A DNA stretch of 38,530 bases, taken from positions 68,971-107,500 of the forward strand of contig LSSI01000020.1 of NCBI GenBank assembly GCA_001595945.1. The letters run 5' to 3'. The notes below the pieces were generated by a model. The model searched no databases, was not told where the DNA came from, and saw only the letters and a program-made list of their open reading frames with translations. This DNA comes from Thermoplasmatales archaeon SM1-50. GTDB taxonomy: Archaea > Thermoplasmatota > E2 > DHVEG-1. Positions 3,141-38,348 of this stretch are shown piece by piece (position 1 is the stretch's first letter; every line of letters starts with the position of its first letter). A program made the translations under genes and the position numbers.

Positions 3141-3551
3141 TCAGATGTCAAACAACACTTGAACAAAGCTCGAATCCCCCTCATAAACTTGTAACATATG
3201 GTATGTCACCGCTTTAATCTCCACACCCATTCGATGCTTCGTTAAATCATACCTTTCACCAAAGACATGAGCAGAGAGACGTTTGCCTATCAGAGTTACC
3301 TTAAATTTCCCAAATACAAGACCGTATGCACCATTTAAAAAAAGAAGCTGTGAGAGCCAATCCACCAGCAACTGCTCAAGGCCAGGGGCTTCCAAGACAA
3401 TTTCATATTCACCAATAGGTGTGATGGTTGACTCATCGGTAATGATATCAAACATCCCTTCTGCAGCATGCTCAAACGCCTCTGCAAGGGTCTTCCCATA
3501 GGCTTTTACACCAACATCAGCGGTATGTTCGATAAGCTCGTAATGTTTCAT
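3141..3551 (-). CDS. Archease (RtcB cofactor)
   Basis: The 136-residue protein starts MKHYELIEHTADVGVKAYG and ends GDSSFVQVLFDI, the two most conserved segments of archease. The HTADVG motif carries the acidic metal-binding residue. Archease activates the RtcB tRNA-splicing ligase by promoting guanylylation and multiple turnover. RtcB itself is not in the window. The ATG overlaps the stop of the upstream nucleoside phosphorylase by four bases, so the two proteins are translationally coupled. Length and start agree with the family. Confidence 0.95.
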   Translation of the reverse strand: MKHYELIEHTADVGVKAYGKTLAEAFEHAAEGMFDIITDESTITPIGEYEIVLEAPGLEQLLVDWLSQLLFLNGAYGLVFGKFKVTLIGKRLSAHVFGERYDLTKHRMGVEIKAVTYHMLQVYEGDSSFVQVLFDI

Positions 3552-4312
3552 ACTACTGCCTTGGAAACCTCACTAGGACAATCACAAGCTTGTTTCTCAT
3601 TAAGGGACCAGATTACCTGCTGCATTACTTTTGAAATTAACGGTTCCTTATTTTTGTACACTGAGACAATCTCATCAACGGGTAGTTTCTTCTGGAGACC
3701 AGCCGTCTTGTTGCAGACAAGACATACCGAAGCAAAACACATGCCTTTTTCCCTAGCAAGTACCACCTCAGGAACCATGGTCATCCCAACAATATCAGCA
3801 ACCCTAGAATACAATTTAATTTCTGCGGCAGTCTCAAGCCTAGGTCCCTCTGTGACAAGATACACACCTTTGTCATGAACAGTGATGTTATTGATTTTCT
3901 TGCAACATTTCAGAAGAATTTTCCGAAGGGAAGGGCAGAATGGCTCTGTCATATCTACATGAACTCGCTGCTCCTCAAAAAACGTTAGGGGTCTTGATTT
4001 AGTCGCATCGATGAAATCATGAGGAATCACCAGATCCCCAGGATGAATTGCACTTTTCATAGATCCCACTGTTCCAACGGAAAACACACAGGAGACATGA
4101 CAGCTGGCCAAAGCCTGAATATTCCCGCGATAATTGATACGATGTGGTGGAAGATTTGCCTTCTCCCCATGACGCTGAATGAATAACAACTCATGGTTTC
4201 CAAGAGTTGAGAAATATACAATAATCTCACCATAGGGTGTGTGTACTCTGATTCTTTCTGATTTTTTCATCACATCAGACATCTGATACCCGTACAGTAT
4301 CCCGATTTTCAT
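3548..4312 (-). CDS. MTAP/PNP-family purine nucleoside phosphorylase
   Basis: The 254-residue protein has the MTAP/PNP core: FIQRHGEKANLPPHRINYRGN, SVGTVGSM, TEGPRLETAAE and VPEVVLAREKGMCFASV. The family phosphorolyses purine nucleosides or methylthio-nucleosides. The segment VCNKTAGL has Asn where adenine-specific MTAP has Asp, which points to 6-oxopurine substrates (inosine, guanosine or methylthioinosine). The usual N-terminal GGSG phosphate loop is replaced by ILYGYQMSD, so the phosphate site is unusual. Archease overlaps its end by four bases. The gene faces dph6 across a short AT-rich promoter region. The family is certain; the exact substrate is inferred. Confidence 0.87.
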   Translation of the reverse strand: MKIGILYGYQMSDVMKKSERIRVHTPYGEIIVYFSTLGNHELLFIQRHGEKANLPPHRINYRGNIQALASCHVSCVFSVGTVGSMKSAIHPGDLVIPHDFIDATKSRPLTFFEEQRVHVDMTEPFCPSLRKILLKCCKKINNITVHDKGVYLVTEGPRLETAAEIKLYSRVADIVGMTMVPEVVLAREKGMCFASVCLVCNKTAGLQKKLPVDEIVSVYKNKEPLISKVMQQVIWSLNEKQACDCPSEVSKAVV

Positions 4313-5367: not shown

Positions 5368-7419
5368 TTACTTTTGGTCGTTGGCGTAAATTTCCCTCAA
5401 TGGGATATAGGCAAGGAGCGCTGCAATGAAGACCCAGATTAACACCGATGGTAAGATCGGGGGGTAGTCGAAGATCGCGAAGTTTAATCCTCCAATAATG
5501 AGGAAAGCGACAATAACACCCATCAGGGCCTCTCCTGCGATCAATCCCGCAGTGAGAAGAAGCCCTGTTCTTATAATCTTTTCTTTCGGGGCTACATCAG
5601 TCTGTTTGATGGCAAGATCCCAGTCGCTGATCTCCTCTTCCTCTGCAGAACCGTATTTCTTGATGATCGCTCTATTTGTGATGGCACGGACAATTCCGCC
5701 AGCAAAAATCGGAGTGCTTAAGGTAAATGGAAGATAGATACCTATTGCGACAGGAAGGACTGGGAGGTTGATGAGGATTAACACAAACGCAAGAACTGCT
5801 CCAGCAACCACAAACGGCCAGACCATCTCACCGCCAAGAACACCCTGGACAATTCCCTGCATAAGAAACGCCTGTGGTGCAGGCAGATTTGTACTACCGA
5901 TATGATATGCTTTGTCCAATGCCTGGATGACCAAGGCAAGGATTGGAGCTGCCGCAGCGACACCAATTATTTCAGCTATCTGCTGGTTCCGAGGTGTCGC
6001 ACCAATCATTTGACCGCAGGTCATCGACTGTAAGACATCCCCAGAGATAGCAGCAGCACAACAGATCACCGCGGCGATGAGAATCGCGATACCTGCTGCA
6101 CCGACATTCCCTGAGAGGCCAAATCCAAGTAGAATCAATGATGTGATAAGTAATACAGAAACGGTCACACCGGAAATCGGGTTGTTCGATGAACCTAGAA
6201 GCCCGGCCATGTAACCTGCGATAGCGCTGGCAATAAACGCAAATAAAATAGCAAACACAGCCATGACCGCAGATACCGCCCATAAACTTGAAATCCACAC
6301 ATAAACTAGAAACACCGGTATGGTCAGAAGTCCGATCATAAGGAAAACGAGCTTGAAGTTAAGATCCATATCCGTTCTCTTCTTCGCTTCCATCGTTCCT
6401 CCTTTAATACCTGCTACTGCTTCTCGTATGCCACTGGCCAGGTTTGATCGAAGTTTGAAGATCGTATACAAACCACCAACAACCATGGCACCGACACCGA
6501 TGTAGCGGATGTAACTACCCCAGATCGCAAAGAATCCCCATATCTGATATCCGATGTCAGCATTTCCGAATCCAAGAGCAAGTGCATCGGTGACCTCTGA
6601 CGGGGTAGTTGGTGTTGGAAGACCTGTTGCCAAAGCAATGAGGGGAACAAGAATTACCCATCCGATAAGACCACCAACAAAGACAAACGCAGCTATCTTT
6701 GGTCCAATAATCCATCCAACTCCAAGTAACGCAGGCGATGTCGCAACACCACCATAGAAAACTCCAGATTTTTCCCCTGTTCCAATGTTGAATTTCCCTA
6801 TATTCGTAATGCCATGGATGGCACCAGCAAACATTTTAAGACCGACTTGACAGAATTTAAATAAACCTGCGATGAGTACTCCGACAATAAGCCAAATCCC
6901 GCTAACGCCGCTTCCTTTGATGTTCTTCCCTTTTTCTGCTTCGATTCCGCCAACTGTTGTAGTCAGAACTGCAGCGACAGCGACCCCTTCAGGAAATGGA
7001 AGGTCTGTTTTGATTATTAATGCTCTTCGAAGTGGGACCATCCAAAGTACTCCAAGTATCCCACCAAATAATGCAATTAATGTTGTTTCAATATAGTGAA
7101 TCTCTGTCCAGGTTCCGATGAGAACAAGGGCAGGGATAGTAAAAATGATTCCTGCGGCGAGCGCTTCGCCAGCCGCTGCCCCCATCATCCCAAGGTTGAC
7201 CTCTAAAATCGTTCCTTTCAGTGGTCTGAGAAACGCAAACGCCATGACGGCACCAGGGATGACCGCAGACACGGTCATTCCAGCATACAAACCAAGATAT
7301 GCGTTTGCTGCTCCAAGAACTATTGCCAGAACAGCTCCGATCAACACCGCTTTAATCGTCAATTCAGGTATCTTTTTTTCCGCTGGGATAAAAGAGTGAA
7401 AATCATCTCGAGATGGCAT
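5368..7419 (-). CDS. OPT family oligopeptide transporter
   Basis: The 683-residue protein is almost entirely hydrophobic with some 14-16 predicted membrane segments. It shows OPT-family signatures: GAANAYLGLYAGMTVSAVIPGAVMAF near the N terminus, LPFPEGVAVAAVL, an internal SGDVLQSMTCGQMIGATPRNQQ, and IGIYLPFTLSTPIFAGG near the end. OPT proteins are secondary transporters of short peptides or metal chelates across the cytoplasmic membrane. The ATG at 7419 begins a short hydrophilic N terminus (MPSRDDFHSF). On the minus strand a TATA-like ttttataaac (about 7451-7462) lies some 35 bases upstream. A PqqD-like gene follows after four bases, so the two form a unit. Peptide uptake fits the C25 peptidase elsewhere in the window, but that link is inference. 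Confidence 0.93.
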   Translation of the reverse strand: MPSRDDFHSFIPAEKKIPELTIKAVLIGAVLAIVLGAANAYLGLYAGMTVSAVIPGAVMAFAFLRPLKGTILEVNLGMMGAAAGEALAAGIIFTIPALVLIGTWTEIHYIETTLIALFGGILGVLWMVPLRRALIIKTDLPFPEGVAVAAVLTTTVGGIEAEKGKNIKGSGVSGIWLIVGVLIAGLFKFCQVGLKMFAGAIHGITNIGKFNIGTGEKSGVFYGGVATSPALLGVGWIIGPKIAAFVFVGGLIGWVILVPLIALATGLPTPTTPSEVTDALALGFGNADIGYQIWGFFAIWGSYIRYIGVGAMVVGGLYTIFKLRSNLASGIREAVAGIKGGTMEAKKRTDMDLNFKLVFLMIGLLTIPVFLVYVWISSLWAVSAVMAVFAILFAFIASAIAGYMAGLLGSSNNPISGVTVSVLLITSLILLGFGLSGNVGAAGIAILIAAVICCAAAISGDVLQSMTCGQMIGATPRNQQIAEIIGVAAAAPILALVIQALDKAYHIGSTNLPAPQAFLMQGIVQGVLGGEMVWPFVVAGAVLAFVLILINLPVLPVAIGIYLPFTLSTPIFAGGIVRAITNRAIIKKYGSAEEEEISDWDLAIKQTDVAPKEKIIRTGLLLTAGLIAGEALMGVIVAFLIIGGLNFAIFDYPPILPSVLIWVFIAALLAYIPLREIYANDQK

Positions 7420-30764: not shown

Positions 30765-30785
30765 GCCAAGCCGCCGAAGGGATTC
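30765..30785. repeat. Short copy of the intergenic repeat
   Basis: The 20 or so bases around caagccgccgaagggattc match the first end of the 106-base element at 33986 and 38243; after that the sequence diverges. It lies 11 bases downstream of the HEPN gene stop. It is probably a truncated relic. Confidence 0.6.
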
Positions 30786-30796
30786 CTAGAAATGGT

Positions 30797-31246
30797 TCAA
30801 TTCCCTAACAATTTTTTATTAAGTGAAGTGAGAATTTGTTGAACTGTTTCTAGAAATTTTTCTGATTTCTCAAGTGCGTCCTCTGCTTCGTGTTCGTCCA
30901 CATTTGATTTTTCTAATCCGTAGAATGATTCATGGCGCTCCAGTCGATATGTATCAAGCCAATTAATTTTATCCTGCCCTAGGGTAGATGAATTGTGTTC
31001 TCTGAGGTATGCGACGACACAGGCATGGCTTTTTTCAATGACTCCATCATGAAATAACAGTGCACGAGCTGCTTGGAACATACTTGTATAGGATGATACA
31101 ATGGATTCTTCAAAGAAGTCGTTTTCAAAAAGGTCTTGAGCTCGTTGCTTTTTCATTTCTGCCATTTCCAATGCTTTTGTTACCTTGAGTGGGTCGGGAT
31201 TTGTCCTTCGTAGGAGTCGTTTCTGAAAACATTCACGTGCTTTCAT
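30797..31246 (-). CDS. HEPN-domain protein (putative RNase toxin)
   Basis: The 149-residue helical protein has the HEPN four-helix pattern. KALEMAEMKKQRAQDLFEND and SSYTSMFQAARALLFHDGVI form the first pair. A later RLERHESFYG (R101, H105, Y109) occupies the place of the catalytic RX4-6H motif. The spacing is shorter than the standard motif, so activity is uncertain. HEPN partners of MNT proteins are RNases neutralised by AMPylation. The ATG shares one base with the stop of the MNT gene (taatg), the usual paired layout. Length and order fit a MNT-HEPN toxin-antitoxin module. Confidence 0.82.
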   Translation of the reverse strand: MKARECFQKRLLRRTNPDPLKVTKALEMAEMKKQRAQDLFENDFFEESIVSSYTSMFQAARALLFHDGVIEKSHACVVAYLREHNSSTLGQDKINWLDTYRLERHESFYGLEKSNVDEHEAEDALEKSEKFLETVQQILTSLNKKLLGN

Positions 31247-31812
31247 TAAATCACCGGTTTCGTGCCATATAATACAATTCCATCAAGGATCACATCAAGA
31301 TAGAATGCTTTATTGATGTTTGCTTGTTGTGACCATTGCGCTGGTGTAAAATTGATGAGGTTCACATCGCGTTTGAGTAATTTCGCCACCTCCGCAGTCG
31401 GTGTATTTTTAGAAAGAGAAATAACAAGGATGTCGACATCACTGTCGTTGTCGTTTTCACCTTTTGCGAAGCTTCCAAAGAGAAGAATTGAAGTAACGGT
31501 GTTCATATGGTGAGAAAGAAATTCAGAAACTCCTTTTTTCTCTAACCATGAAAGATTGTAGGATATTTTCAGATAGCGAACGGAGGGTGAATCTATATTT
31601 GCTTTATAGAGGATTTGATTTTTTTCCTCCTTTTTCAGCAATAGTCCGTCTGCGACAAACAAGGAAAGTGCTCGTTTCACAGTCATAGGATCCATTTTTA
31701 AGAGCCGAGCAGATTCACGGAGATAGTAGCTATTGTAGGGGTTGTCTATGAAAAGTTTTAAGACTGTTAACTGTCTGATTTTTTGATACAACTGTATCAT
31801 AATTTCATACAT
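31246..31812 (-). CDS. Winged-helix plus minimal nucleotidyltransferase antitoxin
   Basis: The 188-residue protein has an N-terminal winged helix (SYYLRESARLLKMDPMTVKR, about residues 28-70). A MNT domain follows with the catalytic pattern GSFAKGENDNDSDVDILV (GS at 113-114, DVD at 125-127), the GSX10DXD signature. MntA-type enzymes AMPylate the HEPN toxin to silence it. The winged helix adds a DNA-binding module, allowing autoregulation. It precedes and overlaps the HEPN gene. The module lies between an orphan transporter lipoprotein and a surface protein, in a repeat-rich accessory area. Confidence 0.87.
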   Translation of the reverse strand: MYEIMIQLYQKIRQLTVLKLFIDNPYNSYYLRESARLLKMDPMTVKRALSLFVADGLLLKKEEKNQILYKANIDSPSVRYLKISYNLSWLEKKGVSEFLSHHMNTVTSILLFGSFAKGENDNDSDVDILVISLSKNTPTAEVAKLLKRDVNLINFTPAQWSQQANINKAFYLDVILDGIVLYGTKPVI

Positions 31813-32069: not shown

Positions 32070-33821
32070 TTATTCATAACCAATAATAAGGAAAGGATGA
32101 TACTCAGTGTAATCTTTTGATCGAAAATAAGGTGTTTCATTCTGCCAATCTCCACTCATATCCTTTATTTTCCATCCGTAGTTTATGGTACCGTTATTAT
32201 AAAACATTTGAGTGTCTACAGTAACATTCCAAAAAACCCAATTATTAATCGTCGCTGGTATGAATGCAAATGAAGATTGTTCTGCGACAGAGGACGGTTG
32301 ATTATTCCAGGTGACGGTTTCTTCATCCCAATCATTCGTGATTCTATATAAATTCACTTTATTTCCACTGGGATTATTATTCTCATATCTATAATAGTTC
32401 ATTTGAAGACCGGCAACCATGATTGTCACATTCGATGGAACAGCACTGAGATTAAATTTAATGAGCCCCTCCAAATTCCAGGTTCTAATTGATCTGAGTA
32501 TTATCGAGCTACTGGTTCCGAAATTGACATTAGGATCGGGCTCTGAAATTGTGGCATCGTCGACTGGTTCAATAATTACTATATTCTTTGTAGTTGTCCT
32601 GAATGAAAACGTTTTTTTTGCCCAGTATGTTCCATCGGTTACGTTCACAAACCACGTATATTTCGTAAAGTAATCAAGATCATTGATAGGAACAGCATAT
32701 CGACCATCAGTGACGTTAGTTCCAACTCCCGATCCGATATCTGGTTGCGTCTCTACTGTCCAATTCATCAACTCATGCTGAGGATCCACCAAATCAAAAC
32801 TTATATTCGATGTATTGATTGGTAAAAACTCAGAGTTATCTATTGGTGAAGGATTCAAAATAAATGGAGTGAACGCTTCTGTGGTAAATGTGTATTTATG
32901 ACTAATTGGTGTTACTCCAAAACCCCCTTCATATAATAATAATTCCCATCTATAATTGGTGTTTTCTTGCAATCCATAGATTGGAATGGTGTATGTCCCG
33001 CTTGGTACTAGCTCACCTTCTCCTTTACCAATATCTGGAGATGTTGTAACCTTGTAACTCATTAAATCATTATCCTCATCAGTGAGACGAAAACTAAGCT
33101 CAGTGAGGTCTAATGACACATTTTGTTCACCATCAGCAGGTGCAATATCAGAAGGAAATGGGTGATTGTTCCCCTCTGGTATAGGACAATTAAAACGTTG
33201 GTATAATGCGGGAAGAGGACCTAACATTAGTATAAGAAGGTCTAACAACTCGTCTATAGCAGATGGTGGAGGCGATAGAAGGAGCACTAATAGCCCCCAG
33301 AAAAACAACACAACACCCATCATGACTAGTAACGTAGTGCAGATTACTGGAAACCCCCATTCAGATGTTTCACACCTACAATCAGAGTTTGCCAATTGCA
33401 TTATTTCATCTTGGACTTTAGGATCCCTTTCAATTACAGAAGCTATTTCTTGTTGTATATCAGGCGTAATTAAATGATATGTGTTAATCCATGATTGTAT
33501 TCTAGTTTTACTAATGAACTTTGAGAGGATTAATCCAAAGAAATACATTCGTTTTAATTGATTTTTCGTTATAACAGGAATTTCTGATCCTAGAAATATT
33601 CCTCTACTCATCTGGGATTTAAGAATAATCCTTTGTATCTCTTTGTTATTAGCAATATCAACAATGGTTTGGAATAGCAACTCTCTCTGATTGACTGATT
33701 CATTTATAGTGGGCTGATTTGATGATTGAACCGATTGATACCCGACAACATTAGTCAACGAAGCAAGAATAAGAATGACAACTGCAATGATGCTAATCCC
33801 GATTATAGGATACAGTTTCAT
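32070..33821 (-). CDS. Membrane-anchored surface protein with FN3-like and DNRLRE domains
   Basis: The 583-residue protein has an N-terminal membrane segment (GISIIAVVILILASLTNVVG) and a helical region to about 150. A second hydrophobic stretch follows (LLVMMGVVLFFWGLLVLLL, about 163-185). Two FN3-like beta units follow (PADGEQNVSLDLTELSFRL; PIDNSEFLPINTSNISFDLV), each with a repeated KVTTSPDIGKGEG or VETQPDIGSGVG motif. The C terminus is a DNRLRE-type domain (VDDATISEP, GLIKFNLSAVP, NDWDEETVTWNNQP). It is probably cell-surface and N-glycosylated. The two FN3-like units are internal duplicates. No enzyme domain is seen. Adjacent 31813-32069 shows only a few decayed codons. Confidence 0.8.
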   Translation of the reverse strand: MKLYPIIGISIIAVVILILASLTNVVGYQSVQSSNQPTINESVNQRELLFQTIVDIANNKEIQRIILKSQMSRGIFLGSEIPVITKNQLKRMYFFGLILSKFISKTRIQSWINTYHLITPDIQQEIASVIERDPKVQDEIMQLANSDCRCETSEWGFPVICTTLLVMMGVVLFFWGLLVLLLSPPPSAIDELLDLLILMLGPLPALYQRFNCPIPEGNNHPFPSDIAPADGEQNVSLDLTELSFRLTDEDNDLMSYKVTTSPDIGKGEGELVPSGTYTIPIYGLQENTNYRWELLLYEGGFGVTPISHKYTFTTEAFTPFILNPSPIDNSEFLPINTSNISFDLVDPQHELMNWTVETQPDIGSGVGTNVTDGRYAVPINDLDYFTKYTWFVNVTDGTYWAKKTFSFRTTTKNIVIIEPVDDATISEPDPNVNFGTSSSIILRSIRTWNLEGLIKFNLSAVPSNVTIMVAGLQMNYYRYENNNPSGNKVNLYRITNDWDEETVTWNNQPSSVAEQSSFAFIPATINNWVFWNVTVDTQMFYNNGTINYGWKIKDMSGDWQNETPYFRSKDYTEYHPFLIIGYE

Positions 33822-33888: not shown

Positions 33889-33913
33889 TGCAGGGGAAGG
33901 GATTTGAACCCTT
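33889..33913 (-). repeat. tRNA 3'-end fragment, left copy
   Basis: On the minus strand these 25 bases read as a tRNA T-arm (aaggg, loop ttcaaat, ccctt) followed by an acceptor strand cccctgc and discriminator a. They are identical to 36194-36218. No matching 5' half (gcaggggx) is found next to it, so it is not an intact tRNA. It is a likely attachment-site remnant. Confidence 0.75.
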
Positions 33914-33985
33914 ATCGAGATGGGAATTTGAATTAACAAATAAAAATTTTTGTTTTTCTCCTTCAGAATCACCGTGTTAGTTATT

Positions 33986-34091
33986 GTCAAGCCGCCGAAG
34001 GGATTCGGACCAAAAGTCCTGATTACTACCTGAAAAATACGCAAAAAATGGGAATTTTACATAGTCAGTTCTTCGTATTTAAAATTAACTC
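33986..34091 (-). repeat. 106-bp intergenic repeat, copy 1
   Basis: It aligns without gaps to 38243-38348, with about four fifths of positions identical. The best-kept blocks are caagccgccgaagggatt, gattactacct and gttcttcgtatttaaa. Read on the minus strand it starts with a TATA-like ttttaaatac and ends in a GC-richer part containing ggactttt-g-gtcc, a small hairpin. A small RNA gene is possible. The 20-base end is also seen at 30765. Confidence 0.7.
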
Positions 34092-34156
34092 TTGCTTTGG
34101 CTTTGCATATTAATCCATGCTTACATTTGAATTTTATAATAAACATTAATCAGCGT

Positions 34157-34190
34157 AAAATATAAATATAAGTATATGCTTATATACTTA
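34157..34190 (+). promoter_or_regulatory. ArsR promoter with perfect 9-4-9 operator
   Basis: A TATA-like aaaatataaata (34157-34168) is followed by a perfect inverted repeat, taagtatat-gctt-atatactta (34169-34190), which reaches the A of the ArsR ATG. The transcript would be almost leaderless. ArsR repressors bind such dyads over the start site, so autorepression is likely. Confidence 0.7.
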
Positions 34191-34567
34191 TGATGTATGA
34201 ACCAAAAGGGTTCCCTTGGGAAGAACTTGGCCGGAAAATGGCGATTGTGTTTAAAGCTCTTGGAGATGTGAACCGCATGAAAATCATCAAGATATTGGCA
34301 TCCAATCCCGACGAAAGTATCTGCGTCGTCGACCTCGGAAAGATACTGGGAATCACGCAACCTGCAACATCTCAGCACATTAAAGTTCTTCAAAACATAA
34401 ATATCGTATCTCCTAAGAGAATCAAAAACAAAACCTTTTATGCAATTAATTCAGGACAACTAAGAGATTACAACAAAATCATTGATGAGATGTTCAAGAA
34501 AGCGTTCCAAAGATGCACCTACGACGGTGATTGTACCACCTGCCCAGACCGGGGGAACTGTAAGTGA
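34190..34567 (+). CDS. ArsR-family repressor with C-terminal cysteine cluster
   Basis: The 125-residue protein has an ArsR winged helix: MAIVFKALGDVNRMKIIKIL, then CVVDLGKILGITQPATSQHI (recognition helix) and NIVSPKRIKNKTFYAINSGQ. The C terminus adds CTYDGDCTTCPDRGNCK, four cysteines that could bind a metal, metalloid or Fe-S cluster. A single Cys (ICVV) lies in the helix where ArsR/SmtB metal sites often occur. A perfect operator overlaps its start. It is the first gene of the bracketed cassette. Confidence 0.9.
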   Translation: MMYEPKGFPWEELGRKMAIVFKALGDVNRMKIIKILASNPDESICVVDLGKILGITQPATSQHIKVLQNINIVSPKRIKNKTFYAINSGQLRDYNKIIDEMFKKAFQRCTYDGDCTTCPDRGNCK

Positions 34568-34628
34568 CATTGTGCTGCATTAGTAGACTTTGAGATTACT
34601 AATTCAGAGATAAAAGGAGACAAATAAA

Positions 34629-35192
34629 ATGATAAATATACGCGCAAGGATGTTTAATCGAAGGGCATCGAACAAAAAATTCATGCCGGACAAAATAATA
34701 GAAAGTTTACAGATCCGTCCTGGAGATAAAGTGGCGGACATTGGTTCCGGAGGCGGTTATTTCTCATTTCAATTCTCACATCTTGTGAATAATGGGGGAA
34801 AAGTCTTCGCAGTGGATACGAACGCTAAACTACTGAGTTATATCAAAAATCAAAGCATAGAACTGGATCTTGAAAATCTAATAACTGTGCCCACCGATGG
34901 TTTCCCAACAGGTTTACCATTAGGGCAACTTCATCTGGTTTTTCTAAGAAATGTATATCATCATTTTACCGACCGTGTGGAGTATTTCAAAAGGATGAGA
35001 GCATATCTAATACCGGAGGGACGAATAGCGATACTCGATTATACAGAGAATGGTGGATTCAGTTTCCATAAACTCTTCGACCACCAAGTCCCTCCAGACA
35101 TAATTCGAAGAGAGATGGAAGAGGCTGGTTACACATTAGACGCAACATTTAATTTCTTATCAGAGCAATCCTTTATGATTTTCCGAATATGA
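34629..35192 (+). CDS. SAM-dependent methyltransferase (class I)
   Basis: The 187-residue protein contains motif I VADIGSGGGYFSFQFS and the acidic VFAVDTNAKLL. Post-motifs include LVFLRNVYHHFTD and YLIPEGRIAILDY. This is a class I Rossmann methyltransferase of the UbiE/ArsM-like group. It has no cysteines, so ArsM-type arsenic methylation, which needs conserved Cys, is unlikely. The substrate is unknown. The start has aggag (34615-34619) upstream, and its stop overlaps the DUF4405 start by four bases, so they are coupled and likely act together under the ArsR repressor. Confidence 0.87.
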   Translation: MINIRARMFNRRASNKKFMPDKIIESLQIRPGDKVADIGSGGGYFSFQFSHLVNNGGKVFAVDTNAKLLSYIKNQSIELDLENLITVPTDGFPTGLPLGQLHLVFLRNVYHHFTDRVEYFKRMRAYLIPEGRIAILDYTENGGFSFHKLFDHQVPPDIIRREMEEAGYTLDATFNFLSEQSFMIFRI

Positions 35193-35689
35193 GAAAAGAA
35201 GACATGCGAATTGGAAGAATCGAAAAAAATTACGCTATTGACTTAGTTATGGGTTTCCTGTTCATCACCACAACATTCACCTGGAAAAATTACTTTACGC
35301 ATATTATACTTGGATTTGCGCTTCTTTTAGTGCTAGTGGCACACCTTTGGCTGCATAAAGAATGGATGATCTACCAAGCTATCTTAATTATAAAAAGGAC
35401 AAAACGAAGCTCTGGAGGGATAACCAGGGTGAATTTCCTGGTAGACTTATTTATTGGCATGATGTTCATAGCTTCTATAGTATCCGGGTTGATTATAATC
35501 GTCTATGATTCTGTTGTTTGGGGCGGTCTTCATTCGTTTATGAGCTGGATGGTTTTTCTCGGGTGTCTGGTACATTTGTTTCTGCATTTCACGTGGATTA
35601 TTGATATAACAAGAAGGCTGGTAACCAGAAGGATTAAAATTCGAAAGGATAGACATTCTATATTACAAAAGCAAATATTACATAATTGA
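35189..35689 (+). CDS. DUF4405-like four-helix membrane protein, probable b-type haem
   Basis: The 166-residue protein has four membrane helices. Helix-linked histidines occur in pairs: THIILGFALLLVLVAHLWLH, then GGLHSFMSWMVFLGCLVHLFLHF. This His pattern resembles DUF4405 and cytochrome b561-type electron carriers, which coordinate haem through His on adjacent helices. The C-terminal tail is basic. It overlaps the methyltransferase by four bases. An alternative start is Met6 (35204). Haem binding is inferred from family resemblance. Confidence 0.75.
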   Translation: MRKEDMRIGRIEKNYAIDLVMGFLFITTTFTWKNYFTHIILGFALLLVLVAHLWLHKEWMIYQAILIIKRTKRSSGGITRVNFLVDLFIGMMFIASIVSGLIIIVYDSVVWGGLHSFMSWMVFLGCLVHLFLHFTWIIDITRRLVTRRIKIRKDRHSILQKQILHN

Positions 35690-35702
35690 TTTGGAGTAAT
35701 GT

Positions 35703-36188
35703 ATGATGGATGAATTTCTAATAGACAATCTTGTTGTTTTTTCTGCAATTATCTACTATGCTTTTTTGTGTCTAGTATATTTATTTCGAGCCTATGAGCG
35801 CGATAAACTGGAATTGATGTTTGTCCCAATCTTTAGTCTTCTGCTAGTCCCATTTGTTACTTTATGGATATTGAACCTTTTAAATGGAAGCGATATAGGA
35901 CGCTTGATTACGGGACTTCCGATAATCATCTATCTGGTGTATGACCTCTGGTATCGTTTAATTACTAAGAAGAAACCGCAACATCACCCCGACCGTTGGC
36001 CCATTGGTTTAATAGTATATTTGATACTGCTCCAAGTTGGGAGCATAGCCTTGAATTGGTACGGGTTCCTTGTATCGCAAGCCTATGGACGCGCGCTGAT
36101 AATCAGTTACTTCGTCATGTTAGGTTGCTTTGGCTTTTATCAAAATAGTTTTAATAAAAAGAAAAAGGCAATTAAGAACGAATGGTAA
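35703..36188 (+). CDS. Hydrophobic membrane protein, last gene of cassette
   Basis: I do not recognise the family. The 161-residue protein has about four or five membrane helices (LVVFSAIIYYAFLCLVYLF; LMFVPIFSLLLVPFVTLWIL; LPIIIYLVYDLWYRLI; GLIVYLILLQVGSIALNWYG; ALIISYFVMLGCFGFY). Charged loops lie between them, one of which contains KKKPQHHPDRWPIG. It begins 13 bases after the DUF4405 gene behind ttggagta. It ends a few bases before the right tRNA fragment. It may be a partner of the haem-type membrane protein. Confidence 0.7.
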   Translation: MMDEFLIDNLVVFSAIIYYAFLCLVYLFRAYERDKLELMFVPIFSLLLVPFVTLWILNLLNGSDIGRLITGLPIIIYLVYDLWYRLITKKKPQHHPDRWPIGLIVYLILLQVGSIALNWYGFLVSQAYGRALIISYFVMLGCFGFYQNSFNKKKKAIKNEW

Positions 36189-36193
36189 AATAG

Positions 36194-36218
36194 TGCAGGG
36201 GAAGGGATTTGAACCCTT
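36194..36218 (-). repeat. tRNA 3'-end fragment, right copy
   Basis: These 25 bases are identical to 33889-33913 and in the same orientation. The shared sequence covers precisely the T-arm through the discriminator base, and the flanks differ on both sides. Upstream on the minus strand there is a hairpin (gaagcat/atgcttc, about 36234-36265) but no D-arm or 5' acceptor, so no complete tRNA. Confidence 0.75.
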
Positions 36219-36329: not shown

Positions 36330-37016
36330 ATGCTTATTTTTGTTCATGGAATGTTATCAACTGCTGATGTATGGAAGCCTATTATCAACTATTTTCATGA
36401 GAGAAATTTTTCATGCAAAGCTGTTAATTTGAAAGAAGGATTAAATCTGAAGAAAGTTCACTTTCAAGATTATGTTGATAAAGTAAAAAACATTGCAACA
36501 GAGGACGATATCGTTATTGGACATTCCATGGGTGGTCTGATTGTCCAGAAAGTAGCAGAGGAAGGCGACATAAAAGGCGGTGTTGCGATATGTTCTGCAG
36601 CTCCAAAAGGAGTAAAATATCGTGGGAATATTGTGCTGTCTTCTGCCAAGTATGCACCACACATTATTAGAGGTTTACCGTTTAAACAGGACTATCCTTT
36701 TATTAGGAAATATATGTTGGTTGGTATCAAAGAAGAACAGGCAAGAAATATCTATGAAACATTAGAGAAGCAGTCAGCAATTGTGACGTATGAACTTGGA
36801 TTAAATAGAATTGGTGTCGATGAGAAAAAAGTGCGATGCCCTCTCTTTTTCATTGCCACAAAACAGGATGGAATAAGTCCTCCTGAACTGGTGTACAGAA
36901 TTGCTCAGAAATACGATGCTGAATACAAGCAGTATGATGGTTGCCATCATTTTTTTAGTAATGATAACTGGGGAGAAATAGCAGAGGGAATTCATACCTT
37001 TATATCAAAAATATGA
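36330..37016 (+). CDS. Alpha/beta hydrolase
   Basis: The 228-residue protein starts MLIFVHGMLSTADVWKPIIN with the oxyanion HG motif. It has the nucleophile elbow VIGHSMGGLIVQK, the acid in ATKQDGISPPELV and the His in YDGCHHFFSN. It is a cytoplasmic serine hydrolase of the lipase/esterase type without a signal peptide. No substrate can be assigned. It lies 112 bases beyond the right tRNA fragment, on the same strand as the cassette, but outside it. Confidence 0.87.
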   Translation: MLIFVHGMLSTADVWKPIINYFHERNFSCKAVNLKEGLNLKKVHFQDYVDKVKNIATEDDIVIGHSMGGLIVQKVAEEGDIKGGVAICSAAPKGVKYRGNIVLSSAKYAPHIIRGLPFKQDYPFIRKYMLVGIKEEQARNIYETLEKQSAIVTYELGLNRIGVDEKKVRCPLFFIATKQDGISPPELVYRIAQKYDAEYKQYDGCHHFFSNDNWGEIAEGIHTFISKI

Positions 37017-37149
37017 TGCAGGAAGAAAAAACCAATGTGTTAAAAACCGTGTCACTACTTCTGATGATTGAGTTTTATTTGTTCAGGGTTGTAGAAATCC
37101 GTTATTTTTTAAAATGACTATCATCCACCCGATAGGAGGTGAGACAGGG

Positions 37150-37683
37150 ATGCGCCTCACCAAAATAATTCAGGATGGGATGATAGTCTTAAAACGAATG
37201 CAAGCGCCACTATATAGCAGAAAGTTCTCCAAGAAAACATATACCATTCACCAGCATTTGCTTTATCTGAGCATCAAAGAAATTCAACAACAAAGCTTCC
37301 GAGATTGTAGAGATTTCTTCGATGAATTCAACCAACTACAAGAAGCACTGAGATTACCCAAAGTACCCCATTTCACCACACCACAGAAATGTCTCCAACG
37401 ATTTCCACCACGCTGGTACAAAATGCTTCTCAAACAACTGATCTGCCTGATCAAATCACGGGCAAATGCCGTGATTGACGGCACCGGCCTTCTGCAGAAG
37501 AAAGTGAGTTTTTCATCCGTGAAAGGTCTACGGTCAGGCAGGAAAACAATAGGAATTACTTATGATCATCAGTCAATAAATTTTGGTATTGCTGCATTTC
37601 TAGGTCGAACGAGTAATAAAGAAAAATCTGATTTTTTTGAAGAGTTAAAAAAGAAATTGCTGGGTTATATCATTAGTGGATGA
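37150..37683 (+). pseudogene. Truncated IS5/IS4-type transposase, chimeric end
   Basis: From ATG 37150, behind a perfect ggaggtga (37135-37142), the first 105 or so residues read as the N-terminal part of an IS5/IS4-like DDE transposase. Segments are MQAPLYSRKFSKKTYTIHQH, DFFDEFNQLQEALRLPKVPH, PPRWYKMLLKQL, and NAVIDGTG, which holds the first catalytic Asp. After GTG the frame runs into unrelated sequence (RSGRKTIGITYDHQSINFGI) and stops at 37683. The second and third catalytic acids are missing, so it cannot transpose. The tail may belong to another decayed gene. Confidence 0.72.
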
Positions 37684-38178: not shown

Positions 38179-38242
38179 GTTTTCAGGTTCTCAGGAGAAA
38201 AGAAATTTTTGTGAATTTTTTTTACTCGAAAAAAAAGTGATT

Positions 38243-38348
38243 GGCAAGCCGTCGAAGGGATGCGGAAAAAAAGTCCGGATTACTACCTATAAAAACAGTA
38301 AAAAATAGTATTTTTTCATACTCGGTTCTTCGTATTTAAATTTAACTC
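38243..38348 (-). repeat. 106-bp intergenic repeat, copy 2
   Basis: It aligns base for base with 33986-34091. On the minus strand it begins with a TATA-like aatttaaatac (about 38333-38343) and ends at ggcttgcc. It is followed by cttttttttcg, a T-run that could terminate transcription at about 38232. The TATA-to-T-run span of about 100 bases fits a small RNA gene. No ORF is kept between the copies. Confidence 0.7.

Follow-up and report, generated by a model that had tools for sequence, protein, structure and literature searches.

A four-gene interval between tRNA-Leu 3' ends in a Thermoplasmatales archaeon, read as one cassette of a tRNA-anchored array

Introduction

What kind of unit is formed by four co-oriented genes that stand between two identical fragments of a transfer RNA (tRNA) gene? 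The question is raised by a 38,530-nt stretch of the Thermoplasmatales archaeon SM1-50 genome (contig LSSI01000020.1, positions 68,971 to 107,500, forward strand; hereafter the window, whose own numbering is used below). Here the 25-mer TGCAGGGGAAGGGATTTGAACCCTT occurs exactly at 33889-33913 and at 36194-36218, in one orientation, with the copies 2305 bp apart. A first-pass annotation had read the interval as a single small integrated element with a metal- or redox-responsive membrane system under an ArsR repressor. We consider it highly probable that the interval is instead one gene cassette of a tRNA-anchored cassette-array system, in which cassettes are stacked site-specifically, in integron-like fashion, at tRNA 3' ends.

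Results

The interval is bounded by two solo tRNA-Leu 3' ends

The tRNA sense of both copies is the minus strand, and the 25-mer read on that strand, AAGGGTTCAAATCCCTTCCCCTGCA, comprises the T-arm, the 3' acceptor strand and the discriminator base of tRNA-Leu. Intact tRNA-Leu genes with the matching end, which the first-pass annotation had proposed to look for, are present in the same genome (G000) on contigs C3 (with an intron) and C25 (anticodon CAA), and a related 3' end is also found on tRNA-Ser(CGA). An ARAGORN scan of the window detected no intact tRNA, at either copy or elsewhere. Pattern search and open reading frames (ORFs) bear out the earlier description of two exact copies of T-arm plus acceptor strand, neither an intact tRNA, around four co-oriented genes. 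The boundary features are as follows.

33889..33913, minus strand: solo tRNA-Leu 3' end (core), left boundary; exact 25-mer, boundary recurring in contig C56
36194..36218, minus strand: solo tRNA-Leu 3' end (core), right boundary; exact 25-mer, assigned by repeat-family membership only
33934..33965, minus strand: arm-like sequence beside the Leu core, GAAGGAGAAAAACAAAAATTTTTATTTGTTAA in tRNA sense; degenerate match to AACAGGAGAAAA... arms

Inspection of C56, a contig of the same genome, reveals a duplicate of the left boundary: identity begins within a partly degenerate core and continues into the neighboring CBM96 gene, and the DNA upstream of the core is unrelated to that of the window. The arm-like sequence at 33934-33965 resembles the AACAGGAGAAAA... 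arms that occur upstream of other solo Leu cores.

Solo ends form co-oriented arrays across the genus

The counts given here rest on pattern searches of genomes and on stretches fetched from them. Within the window's own genome, 13 sites match the Leu end within 3 mismatches. The genome holds about ten solo ends beyond the window pair, besides intact tRNA-Leu genes; matches outside intact tRNA genes are nearly all solo ends that lack the remainder of the tRNA. The reversed pattern, used as a control, gave 0 matches in every genome, and a chance origin of the ends is thereby excluded. Across 45 genomes of the family (at most 2 mismatches), genus members carry 7-34 matches each, and G012 and G044 carry 25 and 14. 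Most others show few matches, as expected of tRNAs alone or of tRNAs plus a few extra copies, and other families of the same class show 0-3 matches within 1 mismatch. A pattern scan of a public genome collection located sites of the cassette type in metagenome assemblies of Thermoplasmata/Euryarchaeota, several of which come from lake sediments according to their titles.

A viral source was also considered and is ruled against: the bare 21-nt core matches one IMG/VR contig, and the arm-plus-core pattern has 0 matches in IMG/VR. The matching contig, 3300031587_000020 (L128; 6.9 kb, with terminase-like genes), bears the Leu core at 6756-6776, 93 nt from its end and outside any obvious intact tRNA, and could be a related element or a helper.

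The ends are ordered rather than scattered. Among the matches listed, consecutive ends within 15 kb are co-oriented in 59 of 59 pairs (p = 1.7e-18), their median end-to-end spacing is a gene-sized 1345 bp, and in genome G008 13 adjacent pairs are no more than 5 kb apart, against an expectation of 1.3. A random scatter of many such tRNA fragments, which the first-pass annotation had named as refuting its reading, is not what is seen: the fragments are numerous, but they stand in ordered, co-oriented arrays. The fetched regions yielded 47 cassettes of 390-4127 bp, 32 of them with a single ORF (at least 80 aa); 45 cassette ORFs run in the tRNA direction and 22 against it (p = 0.007). Cargo outside the window is diverse and includes beta-helix/NosD, CBM96, M14 peptidase and MazE-like proteins as well as DUF proteins.

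Arrays begin at intact tRNA genes for several isoacceptors, namely tRNA-Leu(UAA) (L081/L082/L089/L096), tRNA-Leu(CAA) (L079/L084/L229), tRNA-Leu(GAG) (L230, in G044) and tRNA-Thr(CGT) (L279). The cores match their own anchor: the GAG array of G044 carries the GAG-type end (TGCAGGGGACGAG...), and the cassette in G031 carries another copy of the variant UAA end, TGCAGGAG. The window's own array sits at the end of its contig, and its start at an intact tRNA is not shown there.

Homology breaks at cassette borders

Comparison of related genomes places the breaks in homology at the cores. At the tRNA-Gly/tRNA-Leu(UAA) locus, the upstream chromosome of G008 and G001 is 93.4% identical over 2510 bp, and this identity ends 10 nt past tRNA-Leu. 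Among G000, G001, G002, G007 and G008, identity at tRNA-Leu(UAA) stops within about 13 nt of the tRNA end, and the genes behind the tRNA differ. At tRNA-Leu(CAA), G008 and G002 share 89% identity over 984 bp, beginning at the tRNA 3' end.

The same cassettes also stand in differing contexts. In G008, the intact tRNA-Thr(CGT) is followed directly by a two-cassette block, and in G001 the same block (97.0% over 6224 bp) comes after a solo Thr core and two or more additional cassettes. Identity between the two starts within the core (TCCCTTCGGCGGCT) and ends ~45 nt beyond the last core; the G001 contig falls short of its tRNA-Thr. The difference between the two Thr arrays is a gain or loss of whole cassettes, in either direction. 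A beta-helix cassette with Leu cores at both ends is found in G001 and in G002 (L177, L175), and two other cassettes are common to different arrays, with homology extending to the core. Judged from these alignments, cassette boundaries behave as recombination junctions.

Sites combine a conserved core with an upstream arm

Alignment of 68 solo Leu sites shows high conservation from the T-stem to the discriminator base, moderate conservation of a T-rich tail, and weak to moderate conservation of an upstream stretch with AGGAG and ACCGGTAA motifs. Of 92 solo sites, 24 have the motif AGGAGWAA at most 75 nt upstream; it is found further upstream in 1/92 and at 0/28 intact tRNAs, and shuffled sequences give a mean of 0.25. 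Its conservation beside the core suggests protein binding. At position 52, which is the second base of the core alignment, 29/92 solo sites and none of the 28 tRNAs have T, a change that breaks a T-stem pair. Because of this change, strand exchange probably takes place 3' of position 52, and T-stem pairing would not be required. The site fits a double-stranded core with a cassette-borne arm, by analogy with ordinary att sites.

Thr cores (e.g. L163, L095, L278) are often followed by TTTTTCTCCTGTTAAA, which nearly matches, in reverse complement, the AACAGGAGAAAA arm that precedes Leu cores. The Leu and Thr classes may thus use a common binding motif in opposite orientation.

A second class of ends is interleaved in the window

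Solo 3' ends of tRNA-Thr(CGT), whose intact gene lies at G000:C35, form a second class with three members in the window, one of them inside the four-gene interval.

30768..30784, minus strand: solo tRNA-Thr 3' end (C20:99738-99754 in contig numbering)
33989..34005, minus strand: solo tRNA-Thr(CGT) 3' end inside the focal interval; match to the tRNA-Thr(CGT) end
38246..38262, minus strand: degenerate solo tRNA-Thr 3' end, 2 mismatches (C20:107216-107232)
33979..34091, minus strand: Thr core with upstream arm, 113 nt; repeated at 38236-38348 (82%)

Read in tRNA sense, the window runs from a Thr end through a hydrolase region to a Leu end, then through the four-gene cassette to the inner Thr end. 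After ~75 nt there follow the next Leu end, the CBM96 and HEPN/MNT genes, and a last Thr end. The Thr-to-Leu module recurs in contig C67, 80% identical over 193 nt.

The focal cargo is a set of four genes that looks recently acquired or lineage-specific

All four ORFs between the 25-mer copies lie on the plus strand, that is, opposite to the tRNA sense.

34190..34567, plus strand: ArsR/SmtB-family regulator with a Cys-rich C-terminus (NF033788, 63.1 bits against a cut-off of 55; PF01022)
34629..35192, plus strand: class I S-adenosylmethionine-dependent methyltransferase (PF13847, PF08241)
35189..35689, plus strand: membrane protein, weakly cytochrome-b561-like (gene 3; PF01292 below cut-off)
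35703..36188, plus strand: membrane protein of no known family (gene 4; no significant match)

The ArsR assignment of the first-pass annotation is supported by the regulator's profile score. Its DUF4405 label for gene 3 finds no such backing: PF14358 gives an E-value of 0.33, and the best match, Ni_hydr_CYTB, scores 24.4 bits, short of its cut-off of 30.1. Among 292 other Thermoplasmatota genomes, none has a match to the gene-3 protein (E 1e-12). Homologues of the methyltransferase (43-48%), including a paralogue in C10, have neither the other three genes nearby nor good copies of the tRNA ends. The four-gene set thus looks recently acquired or lineage-specific, and no relative was found to carry the four genes without the repeats.

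The Cys-rich tail of the ArsR-type regulator suggests that metals or redox state govern the three downstream genes, and the cargo is plausibly an accessory stress module, to judge from its protein families. The metal or redox theme proposed earlier is not a property of the system, because cargo elsewhere is so varied. Profile searches found no integrase, replication or virion genes in the focal cassette, and none was found in the sampled cassettes; the earlier view of a non-autonomous unit between recombination-type tRNA ends agrees with this.

Neighboring genes of the window are listed below.

32070..33821, minus strand: CBM96/DNRLRE-domain surface protein, neighboring cassette (PF24517, NF033679)
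30797..31812, minus strand: HEPN/MNT pair with MntA-like nucleotidyltransferase (PF05168, PF18765; NF047752 below cut-off)
36330..37016, plus strand: alpha/beta hydrolase, flanked by the right Leu core and the next Thr core (PF12146, PF12697)

A cassette homologous to the CBM96 cassette stands between two Leu cores in G002:C1. The HEPN and MntA-like pair, of toxin-antitoxin type, has the Leu end (33889) on one side and the Thr end (30768) on the other, and is possibly cassette cargo. At 37114-37683 the window keeps part of an IS5-family transposase gene, apparently decayed (NF033579, 35.7 bits; cut-off 140).

Recombinase genes are common in these genomes

Genes for PF00589 recombinases occur in 12 of 14 genomes examined and fall into several families; the integrases mostly adjoin other tRNAs (Thr, Ser, Val, Arg, Cys, Pro, Ala, Asn). 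In G014 an integrase gene lies upstream of a tRNA-Gly/tRNA-Leu pair, and in G002:C85 a cassette itself encodes a 191-aa integrase, with 41 bp between this gene and the Leu core that follows. Serine recombinases (PF00239) are present in all nine genus genomes. In one such case, L097 (G008:C94), a small serine recombinase ORF at 3441-3933 overlaps a Leu core, and the contig holds several more resolvase pieces.

In one integrase family of 10 members, several of them in G004, G005, G008 and G020, the C-terminal residues (GGIRTRDL, GLEPATVRL) are encoded by antisense tRNA sequence, which means that the attachment site coincides in part with the 3' end of the gene. At L162 (G000:C73:27490-28065), the C-terminal fragment of an integrase gene continues into tRNA-Val, and a Leu end interrupts it at the opposite side; a cassette event may have truncated another element here.

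Discussion

A proposed cassette-array mechanism and its rivals

On the cassette-array reading, a cassette would consist of one to a few genes and close with ~20-23 nt copied from a tRNA 3' end, from the T-loop to the discriminator base, often with a conserved arm before it. Site-specific recombination in the core would place it either directly at an intact tRNA or behind an earlier cassette. Because the incoming cassette brings an equivalent 3' end, the tRNA would be rebuilt at each insertion, and cassettes would stack head-to-tail as a consequence. The Leu and Thr(CGT) ends would be two parallel site classes, here interleaved. The reaction presumably proceeds through a circular cassette intermediate, in the direction of insertion rather than deletion only, and would use a tyrosine-type recombinase supplied in trans, as we assume by analogy with integron cassette clusters that lack an integrase.

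Several observations weigh against this reading. No PF00589 recombinase is consistently linked to arrays in the genomes scanned, and apart from G014 no integrase was found at an intact tRNA-Leu in the scanned set. The AGGAGWAA arm accompanies only about a quarter of solo Leu sites. The right boundary at 36194 is drawn from repeat-family membership, with no independent junction evidence, and no relative was found to have an empty site for the focal cassette. The relatives compared are metagenome assemblies, and no excision was observed.

The strongest rival, in our judgment an unlikely one, holds that the solo ends are attR scars, left when ordinary autonomous viruses or plasmids inserted at tRNAs and later decayed, with immobile packets remaining. 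The many tRNAs adjoined by integrases, the integrase fragment between a Leu core and tRNA-Val in G000:C73, and the known occurrence of tandem integration in archaea (PMC8371274) all speak for such a history. Yet the packets are gene-sized, mostly single-ORF, and lack integrase and replication genes in nearly all cases scanned; whole packets with cores at both ends are common to several genomes (L175/L177); and decay would hardly yield a single clean gene in interval after interval.

The failure to find a linked recombinase could also be met by ordinary homologous recombination between repeated tRNA ends and their flanks, which would spread the cassettes with no site-specific enzyme. We regard this as improbable: the common core is merely ~20-23 nt, homology stops at the cores with unrelated DNA beyond, co-orientation is perfect, and the conserved arm suggests a bound protein. 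More improbable still is that the ends are RNA signals, acting as terminators or 3'-processing sites downstream of genes and having no role in mobility. T-rich sequence does follow the cores; however, the T52 change breaks a T-stem pair in nearly a third of solo sites and is found in no intact tRNA, genes occur in both orientations with respect to the core (45:22), and the junction-exact breaks in homology would be left unexplained.

We give almost no credence to the first-pass reading of a single small element, prompted by two identical ends around four genes: a recombination-type unit it does appear to be, but not an isolated one, with at least two end classes arrayed genome- and genus-wide and a Thr end inside the interval itself.

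Relation to known systems

The cassette arrays resemble additive flexible genomic islands in form. Such islands with tRNA-end direct repeats are described in Ca. Actinomarinales (PMC7771536) and, as fGI-2 with repeats of the last 20 nt of tRNA-Lys, in Ca. Methylopumilus (PMC10872708); growth by addition is common to those islands and the present arrays. Here, too, direct repeats of a tRNA 3' end border the cassettes, arrays start from an intact tRNA, and cassettes are gained or lost. In contrast to the islands as described there, the present system is archaeal, bears multiple arrays per genome (on Leu isoacceptors and on Thr), and shows a common arm and two interleaved site classes.

Archaeal integrons possess attC and IntI (PMC9668308). 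Integrons and clusters of attC sites lacking integron integrases (CALINs) likewise are arrays of mostly single-gene cassettes with the site at one end, in one orientation here, and often with the integrase unlinked. In contrast to them, the site here is a tRNA 3' end rather than attC: its primary sequence is conserved and its T-stem pairing frequently broken, and no attC model was run. The anchors are tRNA genes flanked by ordinary chromosomal genes rather than attI beside intI, and no linked IntI was found at them.

Tycheposons, as characterized in PMC10872708, are cargo elements of 4-200 kbp bordered by tRNAs, an association shared by the present cassettes. These are smaller (~0.4-4 kb) and stacked, and in nearly all cases lack a recombinase of their own; there is no tyrosine recombinase in the focal cassette, and the one cassette-borne integrase is that of G002:C85. 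Integration of autonomous elements at archaeal tRNAs, including tandem integration, is well known (PMC8371274, PMC6563490). The pTN3 integrase, for example, acts at tRNA-Leu, where 41 bp are common to pTN3 and its target (PMC5495485). Recombination at a tRNA gene that is rebuilt in the process is what we propose here as well, whereas those elements are plasmids or viruses with their own integrase and the shared core here is about half as long. A search of open-licence papers found no report of such arrays in archaea. Bacterial precedents exist, and the archaeal occurrence of tRNA-end cassette arrays appears new within that literature.

We tentatively entertain, with rather more doubt than confidence, a further possibility: a dedicated archaeal counterpart of the integron, in which a recombinase acting in trans on tRNA-Leu and tRNA-Thr 3' ends and on cassette-borne arms would capture, stack and reshuffle single genes downstream of essential tRNA genes of Thermoplasmata, with the tRNA as a permanent, self-repairing platform.

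If the cassette-array reading is true, these archaea would possess a gene-capture platform that is integron-like in its working and uses essential tRNA genes as docking sites. It would account for the places where accessory genes of these sediment archaea collect, among them those for surface beta-helix proteins, toxin-antitoxin-like pairs and regulators. With the core and the arm, cassettes can be searched for in any genome, and the identity of the enzyme that mobilizes tRNA cassettes lacking an integrase becomes open to direct test.

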